DNA of 28,681 nucleotides from assembly GCA_001804165.1 (NCBI GenBank), contig MHFL01000023.1:1-28681 (forward strand), in the 5' to 3' direction. The position numbers and the translations under genes were made by a program. The notes below the pieces were generated by a model. That model was given only the letters and a program-made list of their open reading frames with translations, was not told where the DNA came from and did not search any database. The stretch's first letter is position 1. Every line of letters starts with the position of its first letter. This DNA is from Omnitrophica bacterium RIFCSPLOWO2_01_FULL_45_10 (GTDB taxonomy: Bacteria > Omnitrophota > Gorgyraeia > 2-01-FULL-45-10). Shown piece by piece: positions 8,562-26,700 of the stretch.

Positions 8562-8635
8562 TGGGAGGTCGTCCAATGGTAAGACGCGAGCCTCTGGAGC
8601 TCGTTATCTTGGTTCGAATCCAAGCCTCCCAGCCA
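8562..8635 (+). tRNA. tRNA-Gln (anticodon CUG)
   Basis: Acceptor stem TGGGAGG (8562-8568) pairs with CCTCCCA (8625-8631), followed by an encoded GCCA end. The anticodon stem CGAGC/GCTCG encloses loop CTCTGGA, giving anticodon CUG for the CAG codon. T arm CTTGG-TTCGAAT-CCAAG is canonical, and base 8 is T. Lies 4 bases downstream of gltX, probably cotranscribed. Its 3' end is the attachment point of the accessory island. Confidence 0.97.
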
Positions 8636-8655
8636 ACCTTGACGCTCAGGCGAAC
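8630..8655 (+). repeat. Island repeat copy 1 (attL-like): core plus right arm
   Basis: These 26 bases are identical to 10748-10773. The first six are the last six of tRNA-Gln. The left arm seen in the other two copies is absent here and replaced by the tRNA gene. Weaker similarity continues for about seven more bases. Confidence 0.85.
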
Positions 8656-8689
8656 TACGGTTATTGAAGTAGAATCAAATAACAAAGTT

Positions 8690-8723
8690 CTTATTGAAGA
8701 AAATGCTTGATTTCTTCAATAAG
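8690..8723. promoter_or_regulatory. Operator-like 13-bp inverted repeat upstream of the Fic gene
   Basis: The perfect arms CTTATTGAAGAAA (8690-8702) and TTTCTTCAATAAG (8711-8723) are separated by 8 bases. An extra half-site TTATTGAAG lies at 8661-8669 in direct orientation, 30 bases before the left arm's copy. The right arm covers part of the -35 box and the spacer of the promoter at 8707-8735, so a bound protein would block transcription. The C-terminal winged-helix-like segment of the Fic protein makes self-repression plausible (inference). Confidence 0.7.
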
Positions 8724-8735
8724 ATGTTTTATAAT
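8707..8735 (+). promoter_or_regulatory. Sigma-70-type promoter of the Fic gene
   Basis: TTGATT (8707-8712) and TATAAT (8730-8735) are separated by exactly 17 bases. The predicted start of transcription is near 8742, giving a leader of about 40 bases before ATG 8782. This also argues against the in-frame upstream start at 8707. Confidence 0.75.
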
Positions 8736-8781
8736 TGAAGCTGGGTTCACTAACCGCATAAGCAAAACTAGAGGAAGCGAT

Positions 8782-9939
8782 ATGAACATAGGCAATTTTA
8801 AAAGCACCAGAGCAGGAAAAATTGTAAAAACGGATAGAGATTATTCAGCATTCGTTCCTCACTCGTTGCCTCCCGACATTAAGTATTCAACCGGATTGAT
8901 CAATTTATTAGCTGAAGCAAATCGTCACCTAGGAAATCTTAATGGCGTAGGAATATTATTGCCAAATCCGAACTTGCTGATTGTTCCCTACATGAGAAGA
9001 GAGGCGGTATTAAGCTCTAGGATTGAAGGTACACAAACTTCTCTTTCAGATTTGTTTTATTTTGAAGCAGCGCGAAGAGAAGAACAAAAAGCCGAAGCCC
9101 AAAAAACAGATGTATTAGAAGTAGTAAATTATGTTAAGGCGATGGATTACGGTCTTAAGAGATTAAAAGAATTACCGATTTGTTTACGTCTTATGCGGGA
9201 GATACACGAAATTCTTATGAAAAACGTAAGAGGGCAACATTTGACTCCGGGTGAATTTCGCCGTAGCCAAAATTGGATAGGACCTGCGGGGTGTAATCTA
9301 AATGAAGCTAAATATGTACCACCGCCGATTCATGAAATGCATGAGTCTTTAGGAGATTTCGAGAAATTCTTGCACGAACGAGAATCTTTATCAGGTTTAA
9401 TACAATGTGCGCTTATCCATTATCAATTTGAAGCAATTCATCCTTTTCTAGATGGAAACGGGAGAATAGGGAGGTTATTAATTACTTTATTCTTGTGCGA
9501 GCGGGAATTTTTGCATTATCCCATGCTTTATTTGAGTGCGTTTTTTGATAAGTATAGAGATGAATATTACGAACGGCTTCTGTCAGTAAGCCAAAAAGGC
9601 GAATGGGAAGAATGGATTAGTTTTTTCTTGCGAGCTATCATCGTTCAATCAAAAGATGCAGCTGAGAATTCAAAAGCCATACTTGGTTTGCTTGAAAGCT
9701 ATAGAGGACGCATACAGGAGAAACGAACAAGTATATACGTAACTAAATTATTGGATGAATTATTTAAAAATCCATACGTAACTATCCCCCGAACAGCAAC
9801 AAAACTAAAGACTTCTTTTCATACCGCTAAAGCAGCTATTGAAAAACTTAAAAAAACAAATATTTTGGTTGAAATTACTGATAAACAGCGTGGCAAGGTT
9901 TATTGTGCGAAAGAATTATTAAGTTTGTTAGAGAAATAA
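8782..9939 (+). CDS. Fic-family protein (predicted AMP transferase) with C-terminal winged-helix segment
   Basis: Fic proteins transfer AMP or other nucleotide phosphates to hydroxyl groups on target proteins. The catalytic motif HPFLDGNGRIGR begins at H220. The autoinhibitory (S/T)xxxE(G/N) motif is present in the N-terminal part as S78-SRI-E82-G83, so this is a class II, self-inhibited Fic protein. An N-terminal Fic_N-like region precedes it, and residues about 325-385 (VTIPRTATKLKTSFHTAKAAIEKL) look like a winged helix, as in many Fic proteins of this 370-400-residue group. I chose ATG 8782, which has GAGG at 8771-8774 and lies downstream of the promoter, giving 385 residues. It is the first gene of island module 1. 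Targets are unknown. Confidence 0.93.
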   Translation: MNIGNFKSTRAGKIVKTDRDYSAFVPHSLPPDIKYSTGLINLLAEANRHLGNLNGVGILLPNPNLLIVPYMRREAVLSSRIEGTQTSLSDLFYFEAARREEQKAEAQKTDVLEVVNYVKAMDYGLKRLKELPICLRLMREIHEILMKNVRGQHLTPGEFRRSQNWIGPAGCNLNEAKYVPPPIHEMHESLGDFEKFLHERESLSGLIQCALIHYQFEAIHPFLDGNGRIGRLLITLFLCEREFLHYPMLYLSAFFDKYRDEYYERLLSVSQKGEWEEWISFFLRAIIVQSKDAAENSKAILGLLESYRGRIQEKRTSIYVTKLLDELFKNPYVTIPRTATKLKTSFHTAKAAIEKLKKTNILVEITDKQRGKVYCAKELLSLLEK

Positions 9940-9946
9940 CCATCAT

Positions 9947-9967
9947 TGACAATTAGTCATTTTTTTT
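9947..9967 (+). terminator. Weak Rho-independent terminator-like hairpin after the Fic gene
   Basis: A short stem TGAC-aatta-GTCA (9947-9959) is followed immediately by eight T residues (9960-9967). The stem is only 4 bp, so function is uncertain. Confidence 0.35.
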
Positions 9968-10013
9968 GCCTGTTTAGAAAAATAGATTCATTCTTGGGTA
10001 ATGGGAGATGTTT

Positions 10014-10619
10014 ATGTGGTTTAGGAATAAGGAAAGCGACTTAGAAAATCAGTTAGTAGATATTTATGGAACAATGAAATCTTCTGTTATGGGGCTATCA
10101 AAAAGCGAAGCACAAAAAATTGCAAGACAGATGTTGCTTCAAGCCAAGGAAAAAGTTAAGCAGTATGGGTTTGATAGACTTCCACCGAATTTCGGAGACC
10201 ATATTCTTCAAAAAGAAAAAGAAGATCCAAAATTCATGAATATGAACGTTAAGTGAAAAGATGGCGTACAAGATGCAGACATAAAATGGTTTTGGAATAT
10301 GCATCCTTTAGAAAGATGTATGCTTGAGGTTGATGACGAAACTACGCGCCTTACGACCTATATGCATCATTCTGAATTGGGTATGTCCTCTGAAAATGCT
10401 GCCAAAGAAGTGAGAAAATTCCATCCTATGTTCGGTAACCCGGAAGACACACAACATGCGCAGGGGGATGATAGGCCTTTGCCCGTAGAGTTAAAGGATA
10501 GGATAAATAAGTGGGTAGAAAAAAATATGTCTAATGCCCAGGCTTTTAAAGATAGATTAAGCCATTTTTCAACTATGAATTCTTTTATTAGGGCTGAAAT
10601 TAAAGTAGGCGATATTTAA
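10014..10619 (+). pseudogene. Uncharacterised gene interrupted by an in-frame TGA
   Basis: Two open segments, 10014-10253 and 10257-10619, are in the same reading frame and separated only by TGA at 10254-10256. The sequence directly after the stop reads KDGVQDADIKWFWNMHPLER, which is clearly coding in style and has no start codon with a ribosome binding site until well inside it. The simplest reading is one 200-residue gene with a nonsense change, for instance CGA to TGA giving NVK(R)KDG. The start is ATG 10014 rather than 10008, because GGGAG at 10003-10007 is correctly spaced from it. I do not recognise the family. It is charged, mostly helical and without signal peptide or membrane segment. 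It follows the Fic gene in module 1. Alternatives are a sequencing error or two separate small proteins. Confidence 0.6.
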
Positions 10620-10621
10620 GA

Positions 10622-10773
10622 TTGTCCCAAGAGTATAAATCCGCCTTTCCTGCGGCGGATGGTAATTTTCACAAGTAGGTGAATTTCTTGAGGTTGCCTG
10701 CCCTGAGCGAAGCCGAAGGGCGAAGTTCGTCTGGCGTCTAGTTCGGGCAGCCAACCTTGACGCTCAGGCGAAC
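10622..10773 (+). repeat. Island repeat copy 2 (complete, junction-like): left arm, core, right arm
   Basis: Only this copy has both arms. GTTCGTCTGGCGTC (10725-10738) and GACGCTCAGGCGAAC (10759-10773) form an imperfect stem around a 20-base loop that contains the core at 10748-10758. Bases 10722-10758 match 12814-12850 with a single difference. Weaker similarity to copy 3 extends left to about 10622 through a GC-rich CCGCCTTT segment. The 26 bases 10748-10773 are identical to copy 1. Confidence 0.8.
10697..10722. repeat. Small palindromic element nested in island repeat copy 2
   Basis: GCCCT (10700-10704) and AGGGC (10717-10721) flank the inner sequence GCGAAGC (10707-10713), known as an exceptionally stable DNA mini-hairpin. 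The segment is absent from the otherwise matching copy 3, so it looks like a separate insertion. In reverse it spells the LRLRSGQA-type translation often seen from dispersed repeats in environmental genomes. Confidence 0.6.
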
Positions 10774-10802
10774 CACGTTTTGGGATTTGCCAAGGAGAGA
10801 AG

Positions 10803-11363
10803 ATGAATAAAATTGTAATAATCATACTCATGTGTCTCCCCCTTGTTGGATGCGGTCAAGAAACTAATTATCCAAGAGTAAATAACCTTGTTAAAAAACC
10901 AATAAATAGGTCATTCGAAGATGTAACCCTCGGCATGTCAGAGGGCGAATTTAAAGCCAAATTAATTTATCAACAACGTCAACTTGGACGGCCTTATTTA
11001 GTTTATTCAAGGGCATATAATAAATTACATGGGAACCGAATGAAAGAGATAGAAAATGTGTATGAGGTATGGTGTGATTTTTTTAATGGAAAGCTGTATT
11101 ATATACAAATAGTTTATAATTCTGGATATCGCCTTTCTTGGGATGTATTTATTCATAACACTAAGCAAAAATATGATAACGGCAAAGAAAGTCCTATAGA
11201 AAAAGAAATCAGTTGGGACGATAAGAAAACCACTTTGACTATTAAGGAAGAATTTGGGCAACAATTCGGTGAACCAGTTTCTTATTATACGGTATCGTAT
11301 ATGGATGTAAAGCTTGGAGTAGAATATTTAAAAACGGACCAACAATCTTCACCTAAATTTTGA
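10803..11363 (+). CDS. Predicted lipoprotein of unknown function
   Basis: The 186-residue protein starts MNKIVIIILMCLPLVGCGQ, a short hydrophobic signal with lipobox LVGC and lipidated cysteine predicted at residue 17. It should therefore be anchored to a membrane on the outer side of the cytoplasmic membrane. AAGGAGA just before ATG 10803 is a strong ribosome binding site. The mature part has no motif I recognise. The stretch FEDVTLGMSEGEFKAKL resembles the opening of small periplasmic SmpA/OmlA-like or other beta-rich lipoproteins, but this is weak. It is the first gene of island module 2, directly after the complete repeat copy. Its codon use is AT-rich like its neighbours in the island. 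Confidence 0.7.
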   Translation: MNKIVIIILMCLPLVGCGQETNYPRVNNLVKKPINRSFEDVTLGMSEGEFKAKLIYQQRQLGRPYLVYSRAYNKLHGNRMKEIENVYEVWCDFFNGKLYYIQIVYNSGYRLSWDVFIHNTKQKYDNGKESPIEKEISWDDKKTTLTIKEEFGQQFGEPVSYYTVSYMDVKLGVEYLKTDQQSSPKF

Positions 11364-11389
11364 TAATATATAATATGTCGTAAGAAAAT

Positions 11390-11611
11390 ATGCGAAAAGT
11401 GTATAAGTTAATAGTTAAGGCAGTACAAAACGGAAAACTGAAAGAGCCCTTTACGAGTCATGATTTTAGAAAAGCATGCTCAGGCTTAGGAGAGGGAACT
11501 TATAATGCATTTTTATGGAAACACAGATTAGGAAAACCTGGTAGTAATACTGAATTATGTGAAAGAATTTCTCCTGGTAAATTCAAGTTGATAAGACCTT
11601 TTAAAAACTAG
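11390..11611 (+). CDS. Small conserved-looking basic protein of unknown function
   Basis: A 73-residue basic protein without signal or membrane segment. The sequence KLIVKAVQNGKLKEPFTSHDFRKACSGLGEGTYNAFLWKHRLGKPG followed by ERISPGKFKLIRPF reads like a compact winged-helix-type fold: helix, helix, then a strand pair ending with GKFKLIRP. That would make it a possible DNA-binding protein, but this is only a visual impression. The start at 11390 has no strong ribosome binding site. It lies 26 bases after the lipoprotein gene. Confidence 0.5.
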   Translation: MRKVYKLIVKAVQNGKLKEPFTSHDFRKACSGLGEGTYNAFLWKHRLGKPGSNTELCERISPGKFKLIRPFKN

Positions 11612-11668
11612 ATTGTTTGTAGAATAGTTTTTAATTCACAACAGGCTGTTATTTGTTAGAGCAATATT

Positions 11669-11902
11669 ATGCCGTTTAATCCAAAATATTCGATTACCGA
11701 AAAAATTTTAAATAACCTTACGGCTATTGCGTCAGCGCGAGAGGTTATCAAACAGGCATATTTAACGCCAAAATGGGAGACGGAGTTAAGGCGGCAGGCT
11801 TTACTACGTAGTGCCCATGCATCAACAGCCTTAGCTGGAAATAAACTGAGCCTTAAACAGGTAGAGGCGTTGTATTATAGAAGGAATAAAAAGGATAAGT
11901 AA
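11669..11902 (+). CDS. N-terminal fragment of a Fic-family protein, catalytic part missing
   Basis: The 77 residues match only the N-terminal helical region of a Fic protein. FNPKYSITEKILNNL leads into LLRSAHASTALAGNKLSLKQV, the place of the inhibitory (S/T)xxxE(G/N) motif. Here the motif reads S52-TAL-A56-G57-N58, with alanine in place of the inhibitory glutamate. The chain ends soon after (KKDK, stop), so the whole Fic core with HPFxxGNGR is absent. It is probably a decayed remnant. A stand-alone small helix protein acting like a class I Fic antitoxin is a less likely alternative, since the inhibitory residue itself is lost. It is followed 8 bases later by the DUF3800 gene. Confidence 0.6.
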   Translation: MPFNPKYSITEKILNNLTAIASAREVIKQAYLTPKWETELRRQALLRSAHASTALAGNKLSLKQVEALYYRRNKKDK

Positions 11903-11910
11903 TAGGGGAT

Positions 11911-12654
11911 ATGAATAATTATTTTGGTTTTATTGATGAAACAGGCGTTTTACATAATGACCCAGACCAGAGGTTCTTTGCAATAGGCCTATTGAAGTGC
12001 GAAGATACTTCGGCTTTATACGAAGAATTACGAATGTTAAAAAATAGGGCCGAGTCGAAACTCGATCTCGAAAAGCAAGCCAAAGGATTACCTGTAAAGA
12101 AAGGATGCTTTGAGTTTAAATTTTCAAGCATTACTCGTGGCTCGCATGAGTTTTATTACGATCTTATAGGTCTATATTTTAAATTCACAAAGCTTCAATT
12201 CTGTAGCCTCGTGATTGATAAGGCAAATCCTGGTGTAAATATCGAAGAAGTTTTTCCAGACACTTGGGAAGCATATATAGGCTACTCCAAGATGCTGATT
12301 AAGAATAATATGAAGCCGGATGATAAAATATGTGTTGTTGCGGATTTCTTGGGAAAGCCGAAAACGAGCAATAAATACTATGAGCCAGAAATTAGAACTT
12401 TGCCGACCGTTTACAACGCAACTGTGCTAGAGTCACATGCATCACTTTTTATTCAGCTGGTAGATGTTATGATAGGATGTATTGTATTGGATTTTAAAAG
12501 GGGGCGACAGCCAGAGAGAAAAGCGGATATATTCAAGGGTAAAGTTTGTGATTTTCTTAAGGGGAAATTATGGTCGCAATCTTTGGCAGGTAATTTTACA
12601 AAACATCAGCCGAATTACTTTAGCGTGTGGGAATTTAATCCGAAGCAGAAATAA
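11911..12654 (+). CDS. DUF3800 family protein (RNase H-like fold predicted)
   Basis: The 247-residue protein begins with YFGFIDETGVL, the family's typical D-E-(S/T)-G opening, followed by FFAIGLLKCED. It later has FEFKFSSITRG, the segment VVADFLGKP with an acidic residue, and closes with ESHASLFIQLVDVMIGCI, corresponding to the conserved SxxIQLAD-x-xxG helix. This arrangement of acidic residues on an RNase H-like fold suggests a nuclease, but no activity is established for the family. DUF3800 genes are common in mobile and accessory regions. It is the last gene of island module 2. AGGGG lies only two bases before ATG 11911, a rather tight spacing. Confidence 0.8.
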   Translation: MNNYFGFIDETGVLHNDPDQRFFAIGLLKCEDTSALYEELRMLKNRAESKLDLEKQAKGLPVKKGCFEFKFSSITRGSHEFYYDLIGLYFKFTKLQFCSLVIDKANPGVNIEEVFPDTWEAYIGYSKMLIKNNMKPDDKICVVADFLGKPKTSNKYYEPEIRTLPTVYNATVLESHASLFIQLVDVMIGCIVLDFKRGRQPERKADIFKGKVCDFLKGKLWSQSLAGNFTKHQPNYFSVWEFNPKQK

Positions 12655-12692
12655 AAAATGCGAGCCATCGACCCAGTCAACGCCCGCATTTT
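12655..12692. repeat. Inverted repeat after the DUF3800 gene
   Basis: AAAATGCG (12655-12662) and CGCATTTT (12685-12692) are perfect 8-bp arms around a 22-base loop, directly after the stop codon. It could act as a weak terminator of module 2, though the loop is large and no T-run follows. The rest of the gap up to 12735 shows only a short GGGTT/AACCC dyad (12723-12744). Confidence 0.4.
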
Positions 12693-12735
12693 AAATATAC
12701 CTTAAGAAACGCTATTTGTCAAGGGTTTTTGTTAA

Positions 12736-12850
12736 AATTAACCCAAATAGATAAAACCGCCTTTGCCGTGGCGGGCAGAAAGTTTTACAAGTAAAGGGAT
12801 TTCTTGACGCCCTGAAGTTCGTCTGGCGTCTAATTCGGGCAGCCAACCTT
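12736..12850 (+). repeat. Island repeat copy 3 (attR-like): left arm plus core
   Basis: The left arm GTTCGTCTGGCGTC (12817-12830) and the core CAGCCAACCTT (12840-12850) match copy 2, with one difference in 37 bases. After the core the sequence changes to TATTTTTATTG instead of the GACGCTCAGG right arm. This marks the right boundary of the island. The GC-rich upstream part CCGCCTTTGCCGTGGCGGG is a diverged version of that in copy 2. Confidence 0.8.
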
Positions 12851-13547: not shown

Positions 13548-13632
13548 GCGCGGGTGGCGGAACTGGCAGACGCGGCAGCTTGAGGGGCTGTTGGGTTTTC
13601 CCATGCAGGTTCAAATCCTGTCCCGCGCACCA
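13548..13632 (+). tRNA. tRNA-Leu (anticodon GAG)
   Basis: Acceptor GCGCGGG (13548-13554) pairs with CCCGCGC (13622-13628), followed by encoded ACCA. The anticodon stem GCAGC/GCTGT encloses loop TTGAGGG, giving anticodon GAG. A long variable arm built on TGGG-TTTT-CCCA identifies the class II shape. The T arm has TTCAAAT in the loop. The 84 bases downstream carry the hairpin GCTTC-GCC-GAAGC (13637-13649) and no gene. Confidence 0.96.
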
Positions 13633-13716
13633 TTCTGCTTCGCCGAAGCCATACCCGAATGCTCCGGTTGAATGGCGAAGTAGGGCAAAATAAAAGGTTG
13701 GATAAACGGATTAGGT

Positions 13717-13794
13717 GGCCCCATGGTCTAGCCTGGCCTAGGACGTCAGGTTCTCAGCCTGAAGACTCGGGTTCAAATCCCGATGGGGCTACCA
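13717..13794 (+). tRNA. tRNA-Glu (anticodon CUC)
   Basis: The anticodon stem TCAGG/CCTGA encloses loop TTCTCAG, giving anticodon CUC for GAG codons. The T arm is TCGGG-TTCAAAT-CCCGA. Taking T at 13724 as the universal U8 places position 1 at G13717, opposite U13790, so the acceptor stem opens with a G-U wobble. The 3' ACCA is encoded (13791-13794). The D loop is relatively long (AGCCTGGCCTA). Confidence 0.94.
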
Positions 13795-23756: not shown

Positions 23757-26700
23757 ATGAATTTACCTAAATTCTCAGTCGAGCGGCCTGTGACCGTTAT
23801 GATGATAGTCGCAGGAATTTTAATATTCGGCGTAGTTTCACTCGGACTTTTGCCTCAGGAACTATTCCCCCAGATAGTCTATCCCCAACTTACTGTCGTA
23901 ACCCCTTATGCGAACGCGGCACCGGAAGAGATAGAGACTTTAATAACTAAGACGATAGAAGAGGCGATAGGCACAGTCGCCGGAATCAAACGGATACACT
24001 CTATATCCAAGGAAGGATTATCGCTCGTAATTGCCGAGTTCGGGTGGAATCAGAACATAAACTTCGCGGCGCTCGGAATGCGGGAAAAGATAGACCTCAT
24101 AAAGGAGAGGCTCCCCCGGGAAGCGGAAGAGCCGATAGTCCTACCGTTTAATCCATTCGATAAACCCATCCTTATATTGAGTGTCACGAGTTCAAAAGAA
24201 GAGCGCTCAGCCGTTTCCTTGAGAGAGTTGACGAGGAAGATGATAAAAGACGAGATCGAGAAGACCGAAGGCGTCGCTTCAGCAACGATATCGGGCGGTC
24301 TCGAAAGAGAGATACAGATCGAGGTAAACCAGGCCAAACTTCAGGCAAGACAGATACCTATACTCGATGTTTCCAAGGCGATATCGAACGCGAATCTTAA
24401 CTATCCGGCAGGGACAATAAAAGAAAGTTTCTATGAATATCTCATAAGGACATTGGGCGAATTCGAACACGTTCGGGATATAGGCGAGGTAGCCGTAAGA
24501 AGCGAGGCCCAGGAGCAGGAAGATCAATTTTATGAATCAAGGACGGAGTCCCCGTATAGACTTAGGGGCCCCATCTCTAAGTCAAAACGGTTAATATATA
24601 TAAAAGATATAGCCGAGGTCATAGATGGGATAAAAGAAAGAACCTCGTATTCAAGGTTCAACGGAAAAGAGAATATATCCATCTCCATTCAGAAACAGGC
24701 GCTTGGGAATACGGTGAGGATAATAAATAGAGTTAAGAAAAAAATAGAGGATTTGAAATACGATCTGCCTAAAGATATCAGCGTGGCCATAGTCTACGAC
24801 CAGTCCCAATTTATAAAGAGTTCGATAAACGGGGTATGGGACGCCGCATGGCAGGGCGGCGTGTTGGTATTTTTGGTGTTGTTCTATTTCCTCCGGAATA
24901 TCTGGAGCGCTCTAATTGTTACGCTTACCATACCTATCTCAGTGATGGCGACCTTCGCCCTCATGTACTTTTCAGGGATAACTTTGAATATGATGTCCTT
25001 GGGCGGGCTCGCCTTCGGGGTGGGGAGTCTGGTTGACTGCGCCATCGTAGTCGTGGAAAATATATACAGGCACATGCAGTTGGGCAAGGATAAGAAAGAG
25101 GCCGCTATTATTGGCGCTAATGAGGTCTTCATCTCCGTTACCGGATCTATTCTTACCACGGTCGTTGTATTTTTACCTCTCATATTCGTTATAGGCATAA
25201 TTGGGCAGATGTCAAAGGATTTCGCCCTCACTGTAACATTCTCTCTTTTGGCATCTTTGATCGCGTCCCTAACAATAATCCCACTCCTCGCTTCGAGAAG
25301 ACTAAACGTAGGGAAAGGTGTATCGCTGGAAAGCGAGGACGACCTTTCGTCGATAGACAAGGCGGCCGCATCGTCAAGGTTAAGAAAATTTTACGGAGGG
25401 ATGCTCGATAAATATGTAAATAGAAAGGGGAGGTATCTCTTCATTACGCTAGTGGTATTCCTGGCCTCTTTAATCCCATTTGTTTTTATGGACAAAGAGA
25501 TGATGCCAAAGGTTGACCAGGGCCAATTTACCATAAAGGTCGATATGCCGGCAGGGACGCGACTGGATGTCACTAATTATATTGCGCAAAGATTAGAAAA
25601 TCTTCTAGTAACCATACCGGAGGTGGAGACGATAAGCGTGATGGTCGGCTCGACGAAAGAAATGACGACGAGAGATGTGGTGGAACGCCTCAGCTCCAAC
25701 CAGTCGGAGATCGTCTTATCCTTGAAAAAGAATAGGAAGTTGAAGAGTTCAGATGTAGCGCAAATTATTAAGGATAAACTTGCCGCCATGGATTTGAAAG
25801 GCGCGAGGATAGAATATATACTTCAGGAAAACGTCCTCACAACCGGCCTTGGGGCTCAGGCCCCCGTAACTATCGAGATAAGGGGCAACGAGTTGAATAT
25901 TTTGGAAAAGTTGACATATGAGGCGCAGAAAAAGTTAGGCGGCATAGCAGGAGTCTATGGGATAAAGAATAATCTCTCCGAGCCCTCCCCTGAGATGAAG
26001 ATATTTATAAACAAAGACAGGGCCTCTATGTACGGCTTATCAGTGGCGGACATTGCCCAAACATCGATGATAGTTTTGAAGGGCTACATCGCGACCAGAT
26101 TGAAAGAAAAGGGCGAGGAGATAGATATACGCGTGAGATTGCGAAAAGAAGATAGGGACGATTTTGATAAATTGGCCAGGGTGGAATTACAGTCACCGAC
26201 AGGGGCCAAGGTTCAACTCTCTAGCGTTGCCAGTTTCGGAAAGGGCATGGGACCAAGCGAGATAAAGCGAATGAATCAGGAAAGGATCGTTTCAGTTTAC
26301 GCGAATATATATAATAGGCCCGTAAAAGATGTGACAAGCGATGTGAATACGATGTTGGGCAGGATAGAAATGCCCAGGGGCTATCTCGTAAAACTTACCG
26401 GCGAGACCGAAGAGATGAAGGCGTCGTTCACCAGCATGAGAAACGCTATCATAGCGGCGTTCCTTTTGGTCTACATGATAATGGCCGCGCTCTTCGAATC
26501 TCTGTGGCAGCCATTCATAATCATGGTTACTATACCGCTTTCACTCATAGGCGTGTCTCTAGGCCTATTCTTTACCCGCACCAGTATCTCTGCCTATGTC
26601 CTCATGGGAGTAGGCATACTCGGAGGAATAGTGGTCAACAATGCCATCGTTTTGATAGACTGCATAAATTTATTCGTCTCTAAAGGAATGTCCGTCAAAG

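Follow-up and report, generated by a model that had tools for sequence, protein, structure and literature searches.

Composite tandem islands, with elements that lack ccr among them, are well known in staphylococci as staphylococcal cassette chromosome (SCC) and pseudo-SCC elements. The locus described here is an island of two small modules at the 3' end of a tRNA-Gln gene of Omnitrophica bacterium RIFCSPLOWO2_01_FULL_45_10, contained in a window of 28,681 nucleotides (the whole stretch of DNA that was analysed), and it appears to be connected with a large serine recombinase (LSR) of phages. Serine recombinases also act in SCC, as the Ccr enzymes (PMC3146451; here and below, published systems are compared on the basis of excerpts of the cited papers), but the target gene, size and host are different. 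The kind of element is already known from the cis-mobilizable elements (CIMEs) of streptococci and the ssrA islands of Dehalococcoides. CIMEs are flanked by att sites, lack an integrase, stand in tandem with integrase-bearing elements, measure 1.2–13 kb and are subject to accretion (PMC7563491). The modules described here are likewise att-flanked, and the two in the window carry no recombination or transfer genes of their own. CIMEs derive by deletion from integrative and conjugative or integrative and mobilizable elements, have conjugative or mobilizable partners and are mobilised in cis when the partner transfers. Here an LSR tail remnant lies in the module left end, but the one partner whose gene content is known is a tailed prophage that encodes a serine integrase. 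Unlike CIMEs, most modules here share a left end that is distinct from that of the phage.

The Dehalococcoides islands are similar in their serine recombinase (DsiB, a CcrB homologue) and their tandem arrangement at an RNA gene; 15 of them lack an integration module and were proposed to be CIMEs, and in one fosmid the target repeat is embedded in a dsiB homologue (PMC3146451). They differ in targeting ssrA, in a cargo that includes dehalogenases and in that no phage helper is shown for them in the same source. The suicidal integrases of archaea also have their att site within the integrase gene, which is split on integration, with rescue expected from an incoming intact enzyme, and a review regards self-disrupting integrases as exclusive to archaea (PMC8371274), notwithstanding the dsiB-embedded repeat of Dehalococcoides (PMC3146451). 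Those enzymes are tyrosine recombinases, in contrast to the bacterial serine integrase considered here, where the split would take the tail and not the catalytic part. New in the present case are the phage partner, a cargo of defence and toxin-antitoxin genes, a site shared across many families and the apparently self-split bacterial serine integrase. No paper in the literature searched joined Omnitrophota with a serine recombinase, and the main text of a study of Omnitrophota genomes (PMC10066038) mentions no prophage, integrase, phage, defence or recombinase.

Anatomy of the island at tRNA-Gln

We consider it probable that a phage LSR, acting in trans, integrated two tandem integrase-less elements (8636–10750 and 10750–12842) at the tRNA-Gln 3' end. 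The sequence CAGCCAACCTT occurs three times in the window, always in one direction, starting at 8630, 10748 and 12840. The first copy shares the final six bases of tRNA-Gln, whose 3'-terminal CAGCCA is the putative crossover region. Copy 1 consists of a right arm alone, copy 3 of a left arm alone, and the middle copy has both. Right arms 8630–8662 and 10748–10780 are 94% identical and left arms 10722–10758 and 12814–12850 are 97% identical, with 72% identity over the 76 bp further upstream. The arm pattern and the coordinates bear out the original prediction, made from this sequence alone, of an attL, an element-element junction and an attR with core-to-core distances of 2118 and 2092 bases. 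At E ≤ 0.001 the junction sequence matches only these three window places and nothing else in the same genome (1.43 Mb, 64 contigs, 86.7% complete). The features of the site, all on the plus strand, are as follows.

8562..8635, plus: tRNA-Gln (anticodon CTG), the integration target (ARAGORN)
8630..8655, plus: attL, tRNA end and right arm (P') CAGCCAACCTTGACGCTCAGGCGAAC (pattern and arm comparison)
8636..10750, plus: module 1, an LSR-less element with the right and left arm as limits (no LSR match)
10725..10773, plus: element-element junction with the complete 49-bp attP-like dyad GTTCGTCTGGCGTC...GACGCTCAGGCGAAC (repeats and folding)
10750..12842, plus: module 2, an LSR-less element limited by the right arm at 10748–10773 and the left arm at 12817–12842 (no LSR match)
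12817..12850, plus: attR, left arm (P) GTTCGTCTGGCGTCTAATTCGGGCAG, then CCA, read as the displaced tRNA end, then downstream DNA
13548..13794, plus: tRNA-Leu(GAG) and tRNA-Glu(CTC), which in relatives with an empty site lie next to tRNA-Gln on its downstream side

A search of relatives for an empty site, as the original prediction had proposed, was successful. Two genomes of the same family (G001 and G008) have gltX, tRNA-Gln(CTG), tRNA-Leu(GAG) and tRNA-Glu(CTC) in the order of the window, with gltX 78% and 75% identical to that of the window, respectively. The spacing from tRNA-Gln to tRNA-Leu is 111 bp in G001 and 251 bp in G008 versus 4912 bp in the window, where about 4.2 kb is island. 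In G004, the third other genome with tRNA-Gln(CTG), the spacing is 724 bp; its tRNA end bears no arm, and the stretch examined gave no match to gltX. A tRNA-Gln match was present in 11 of 26 same-family genomes, the window's own included, mostly a TTG tRNA at another locus.

The 49-nt junction (10725–10773) folds at -13.4 kcal/mol (z -4.34, equalled by 0 of 200 shuffles). The hairpin is weak within its 136-nt context (z -1.83, equalled by 10 of 200 shuffles) and absent from the half-sites (z -0.07 and -0.67), so that the hairpin predicted for the complete copy is real for the isolated junction and weak in its surroundings. The two-fold symmetry of attP explains it. The near-equal module sizes look coincidental because ten two-armed elements, described below, span 1441 to 3379 bases, and equal size as a constraint was rejected.

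The serine recombinase beside the arms and its reading frame

The enzyme encoded beside the arms is an LSR with Resolvase, Recombinase and Zn-ribbon domains. At all nine places where an LSR follows a right arm (L014, L022, L026, L036, L039 and L043–L046; L numbers denote loci, G numbers genomes) the gene points at the arm, and the match to residues 1–520 of the enzyme stops 106 or 115 bp short of the core; five other places (L016, L027 and L029–L031) start in the same way and end too soon to tell. A tyrosine recombinase sharing the arms, which had been suggested, was not met, though tyrosine recombinases as such were not searched, and the enzymes beside the arms are LSRs. Homologues of the LSR at about 53–66% identity adjoin tRNA-Gln (by ARAGORN for L132, L135 and L137, otherwise by eye) or a tRNA-Ser-like gene (by eye), with other arms. 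Since these relatives adjoin a tRNA but bear other arms, arm and enzyme covary. The attP of serine integrases is about 50 bp long with half-sites of 25 bp (PMC3783163), and the 49-bp dyad is likewise a two-fold symmetric site of about 50 bp, with the integrase match close to its core at the nine places with an LSR.

An LSR prophage of 47.9 kb lies in the Velamenicoccus LiM genome (G080), with a right arm at 1887053–1887079 and a left arm at 1839165–1839190; with no further arm between them, the two probably delimit one element. It encodes a GpA terminase, a portal protein, a J-like tail fibre and a weak tape-measure match. Among eight proteins scanned against PHROGs, three matched families of unknown function only and two matched none or non-structural ones. 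By eye, the prophage sits at the far end of a resident element, possibly a case of accretion; the left arm of that element has diverged and was likewise recognised by eye and missed by the pattern search. A second two-ended LSR element may be present in G200, with tRNA-Gln and a right arm near 9020 and a left arm at 24882 (15.9 kb); its LSR lies in two frames. The LSRs of G242 (contig C5) and G080, which belong to two different families, are 99.6–100% identical, and no tRNA is called within 300 bases of the G242 arm. We read this common LSR, from its sequence, as that of a recently spread phage.

Translation in the LSR frame gives SPERQGW for the right arm and LPELDARRTS for the left. In six of the eight phage-type left ends no stop interrupts the 142 codons read, which lead into a tail of helix-turn-helix-like appearance (by eye); L081 has an early stop and L086 runs off its contig. 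The LSR open reading frame (ORF) of G080 continues across the junction into the resident element, giving 698 aa. Of 13 proteins retrieved with the C-terminal part, two, P0001 (699 aa) and P0003 (629 aa), run on without a break into such a tail and have a related but different att peptide. P0002 and P0004–P0013 stop no more than about 50 residues from the att peptide, and several of these contain a stretch that resembles tRNA antisense (by eye). These frames, open on both sides of the core, strongly suggest that attP lies within the LSR reading frame and that an integrated phage leaves a C-terminal tail at the far end. Because the frame is open through the att core, integration would separate the tail from the enzyme, and the catalytic, recombinase and zinc domains remain together after the split. 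The att site within the integrase gene and the splitting of that gene are as in the suicidal integrases, which suggests that "suicidal" integration also arose in a bacterial serine integrase.

Module left ends retain a part of this tail, with 34–53 codons kept in 13 of them. For 19 codons outside the arm in these 13 tails, the ratio of nonsynonymous to synonymous differences (pN/pS) was 0.40 (bootstrap 0.25–0.56), compared with 0.20 (0.11–0.31) for 50 codons in 7 phage tails, and the module value shows a signature of purifying selection.

Left arms run on to GGGCA, nearly always followed by G, and then diverge, and right arms diverge upstream of CAGCC or GCC. The ends in G242, which are on different contigs, read GGTCA|GCC and GGGCA|CAC and have CA in common if they come from one insertion. 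By our arithmetic, that CA is the midpoint between the dyad's inner arms. A displaced CCA lies directly at the far end in four of eight arrays (window, L015, L023 first arm and L076). Two genomes have small GIY-YIG-like ORFs (by eye, unscored) at the crossover point, between ...CAG and the right arm (G)CCAACCTTGACG, in L021 (1607–1915, minus) and L042 (889–1167, minus).

Differently filled sites and their explanation

The search of other genomes for the same core and arms at tRNA-Gln, and for differently filled sites, was also positive. With up to 3 mismatches, the right arm was found in 8 of 97 genomes (the window's own counted) and the left arm at 23 places in 19 of 384 phylum genomes, with no left-arm match in the rows labelled same phylum only. 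The reversed-pattern control gave 0 in every genome row of both searches, so the matches are above chance. An exact search with a 23-base part of the right arm over 84,980 species genomes gave 21 stretches on 20 contigs, each of them titled Omnitrophota, and 4 viral contigs also have this part. The arm overlaps the 3' end of tRNA-Gln in 14 of the 21 stretches and in 3 of the 4 viral contigs, the fourth being cut at the contig start.

Ten elements with two half-sites and no LSR match were found at eight loci, all in arrays starting at tRNA-Gln (two in the window, L015, L018 first, L023 first, L032, L072, L076 and two in L078). For the eight outside the window the aimed search covered the LSR only and selected ORFs were scanned, some of the cargo having no family. 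The cargo comprises SoFic and DUF3800 in the window, Fic in L015 and, by 60% identity, L076, a methyltransferase with an MjaI-type restriction endonuclease (restriction-modification) in L018, a NYN protein matching PADLOC HEC-09 in L023 with an 86% relative in L032, ParE in L072, and zeta and AAA_14/DUF4143 in L078. Incomplete elements carry NYN (L073), DUF3800 (L079) and Fic (L018 second, L021 and L074). The majority of module left ends share about 105 bp distinct from phage left ends; L032 and L073 make up a third type, the first L023 end has a hybrid appearance, and the ends of L074, the first L078 element and the second L023 element are degenerate. At its start, the first L078 element has a right end of the LSR type and a short remnant of an LSR, without an LSR match, and it has a 432-aa ORF that is transposase-like by eye. 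Cargo similarity is above that of GltX in two of three full-gene pairs (FicB 92% vs. 63% in G059/G037; NYN 87% vs. 75% in L023/L073), and the Fic-N segment of the window and L015 is 72% identical over 68 residues vs. 51% for GltX. No genes for regulation, replication or capsid interference of the phage-inducible chromosomal island type were among the scanned ORFs (selected ones for the non-window modules).

Sequence comparison demonstrates the anatomy of the site, its empty state in relatives, the tie of the arms to one LSR clade, the occurrence of many sites with different fillings and, for some cargo, horizontal spread; it argues strongly for site-specific, integrase-less tandem modules made by an LSR. 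Mobilisation in trans, as originally suggested, would be their likely mode, and any role of the module tail is likewise conditional. The 49-bp dyad GTTCGTCTGGCGTC-N20-GACGCTCAGGCGAAC would be the attP of the LSR of Omnitrophota prophages, and strands would be exchanged within its central CA(G); its right half would restore the CCA end of the tRNA, and its left half would abut the displaced CCA. An integrated phage would keep the catalytic, recombinase and zinc domains beside the tRNA. The modules would descend from LSR elements that lost the enzyme and kept both half-sites and a short tail; an entering or adjacently integrating phage with a functional LSR would insert, stack and excise them, and their persistence may be due to the toxin-antitoxin and anti-phage genes they bring along. 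In a phylum with hardly any cultivated members, this would tie a phage integrase and its target tRNA to a stock of small modules with defence and toxin-antitoxin genes, and such genes could spread without mobility genes of their own. Since the arms are short and nearly exact, the modules could be used to fish for new anti-phage systems. A bolder proposal, which we hold to be rather improbable, is a phylum-specific cassette economy with, as its hub, a serine integrase whose attP lies in its own gene, in which the selected module tails of 34–53 codons re-tail the integrase of a tandem phage and influence whether module and phage move or stay.

Several points weigh against placement by a phage LSR in trans. 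No excision, circle or transfer was observed. Serine integrases normally require attP and attB, which leaves stacking via attL or attR unexplained. The genome of the window, at 86.7% completeness, has only an LSR relative of 23–25% identity, at another tRNA. No uninterrupted LSR was seen with exactly the two arms and attP of the window, and scans of viral contigs found neither an intact attP junction nor a left arm (0 matches each). Seven of the 21 right-arm stretches are off any tRNA, with the arm after the left end of another element in L025, L028 and L040 and elsewhere in L024, L033, L036 and L042; no tRNA-Gln was found in the DNA examined around the G080 site. There is no clear displaced CCA in L032, L072 and L078, and the core is changed in L018. 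The exchange at CA rests mainly on G242, because G follows CA at nearly all left ends, even off tRNA sites. Finally, selection on the tail could predate the loss of the LSR by the modules and explain part of the signal.

Some of this would suit modules that are dead leftovers, that is, decayed prophages or LSR islands (decayed CIMEs) of which att halves and end-proximal genes are fixed in the chromosome. An LSR of at least 80% identity, present in 3 of 22 arm-bearing genomes, is absent from the other 19, the left ends still encode an LSR-like tail, the first L078 element retains its LSR-type right end and remnant, and one of the three full-gene pairs (Fic of L015/L076, 60% vs. 62% for GltX) shows no excess similarity; this last result and the rarity of such an LSR also weigh against placement in trans. 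We nevertheless find decay unlikely: most module left ends form their own family of about 105 bp, unlike phage left ends and combined with many cargos, the cargo exceeds GltX in the other two pairs and in the Fic-N segment, and the tail is under apparent purifying selection. Mosaic cargo, with a Fic-N segment (about 173–250 bp) and the left end of about 105 bp beside differing genes, could also result from exchange mainly by homologous recombination between islands with common ends or internal segments, the LSR having only founded the sites. This is improbable in our view, as the outer limits of the modules fall at the att core and several sites (L015, L032, L072 and L076) have a single module behind the tRNA.

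An integron-like or other single-strand cassette system with the core hairpin as substrate, to which the original prediction had inclined, is very improbable. The 49-nt junction does fold (z -4.34) and short gene units stand in arrays, but the enzyme beside the arms is an LSR, single modules are flanked by half-sites and not by whole hairpins, and the same dyad fits an LSR attP within the LSR frame, the symmetry of attP explaining the hairpin. An integron integrase (TIGR02249) scored above its cut-off in 1 of 20 site-bearing genomes, which is not that of the window; matches below the cut-off occurred in all 20 and in all 14 control genomes.

Genes of the two modules and other recombinases

The genes and left ends of the two modules are as follows.

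8782..9939, plus: SoFic-type Fic gene of 385 codons, module 1 (Pfam Fic_N and Fic; PADLOC SoFic 1.3e-125)
10008..10256, plus: ORF of unknown function, module 1 (no Pfam family above its cut-off)
10299..10619, plus: ORF of unknown function, module 1 (no Pfam family)
10616..10750, minus: left end of module 1, LSR C-terminal tail reading LPELDARRTS...HLLVKITIRRRKGGFILLGQS and stop, the frame crossing the att core
10696..10721, plus: repetitive extragenic palindromic (REP)-like insertion CTGAGCGAAGCCGAAGGG in the left end of module 1 (limits and name by eye)
10803..11363, plus: ORF of 186 aa with a lipoprotein-like N terminus (by eye), module 2 (no Pfam family above its cut-off)
11390..11611, plus: ORF of 73 aa, module 2 (no Pfam family)
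11669..11902, plus: Fic-N-terminal mini-ORF of 77 aa, module 2 (relatives upstream of differing cargo in other modules)
11911..12654, plus: DUF3800 protein, PADLOC candidate PDC-M04A, module 2 (Pfam 1.5e-5, above its cut-off; PADLOC 3.5e-15)
12738..12842, minus: module 2, left end with the LSR-tail frame LPELDARRTSGRQEIPLLVKLSARHGKGGFIYLG, then a stop

The Pfam scan of the seven forward ORFs gave no recombination or transfer family, which together with the lack of an LSR match supports the predicted absence of an integrase from both modules. Neither an LSR nor an integron integrase, the two recombinase kinds searched, was found on the contig of the window. In its genome the LSR search matched C51 only, below the cut-off, and the integron-integrase search matched C62, C19, C48 and C59 only, all below the cut-off.

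A Fic-related gene had been assigned to each module. That of module 1 is a complete gene of the SoFic type, whose product shares 87% identity over 376 residues with the Fic of a G090 module (a pair left out of the GltX comparison), whereas module 2 has only the Fic-N-like ORF of 77 aa, which resembles the first 68 residues of the Fic of another module and matched no Pfam or PADLOC family. Similar ORFs of 77–86 aa recur upstream of differing genes (DUF3800, NYN) in the window (11669–11902), L023 and L032, and in L078 a segment matching the mini-ORF sits upstream of the zeta gene. The motif is STALAGN in the window, L023 and L032 vs. STAIEGN in the full Fic of L015. The mini-ORF is possibly a small partner protein or a shared relic. 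The DUF3800 protein of the window had no match at any other locus compared. REP-like insertions lie within module left ends in the window (10696–10721) and in L018 (at 4520 of the oriented copy), and in neither case do they close the LSR-tail frame.

tRNA-Gln also serves as the site of a second LSR clade, which has other arms. Of 41 genomes searched (mostly known site bearers), 6 carry the arm of this clade, with an LSR present in L132, L135 and L137. No LSR match was found in the 1.6–3 kb examined at L133, L134 and L136, nor in G070 on the whole 10.4-kb contig (L019). In G070 (L133/L019) the second-clade arm lies behind tRNA-Gln (by eye) with nucleotidyltransferase and HEPN-like genes, HEPN being below its Pfam cut-off, and this locus is perhaps a second satellite family.

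The LSR of the window's own genome (G000:C51) is unlikely as a mobiliser of the modules, with its 23–25% identity and different arm. In L100 (1107–1371, C51) this distant LSR adjoins a tRNA-like gene (by eye; no tRNA called there by ARAGORN) that has the arm of the LSR at its 3' end and is split by a group I intron (Rfam RF00028, 69 bits).

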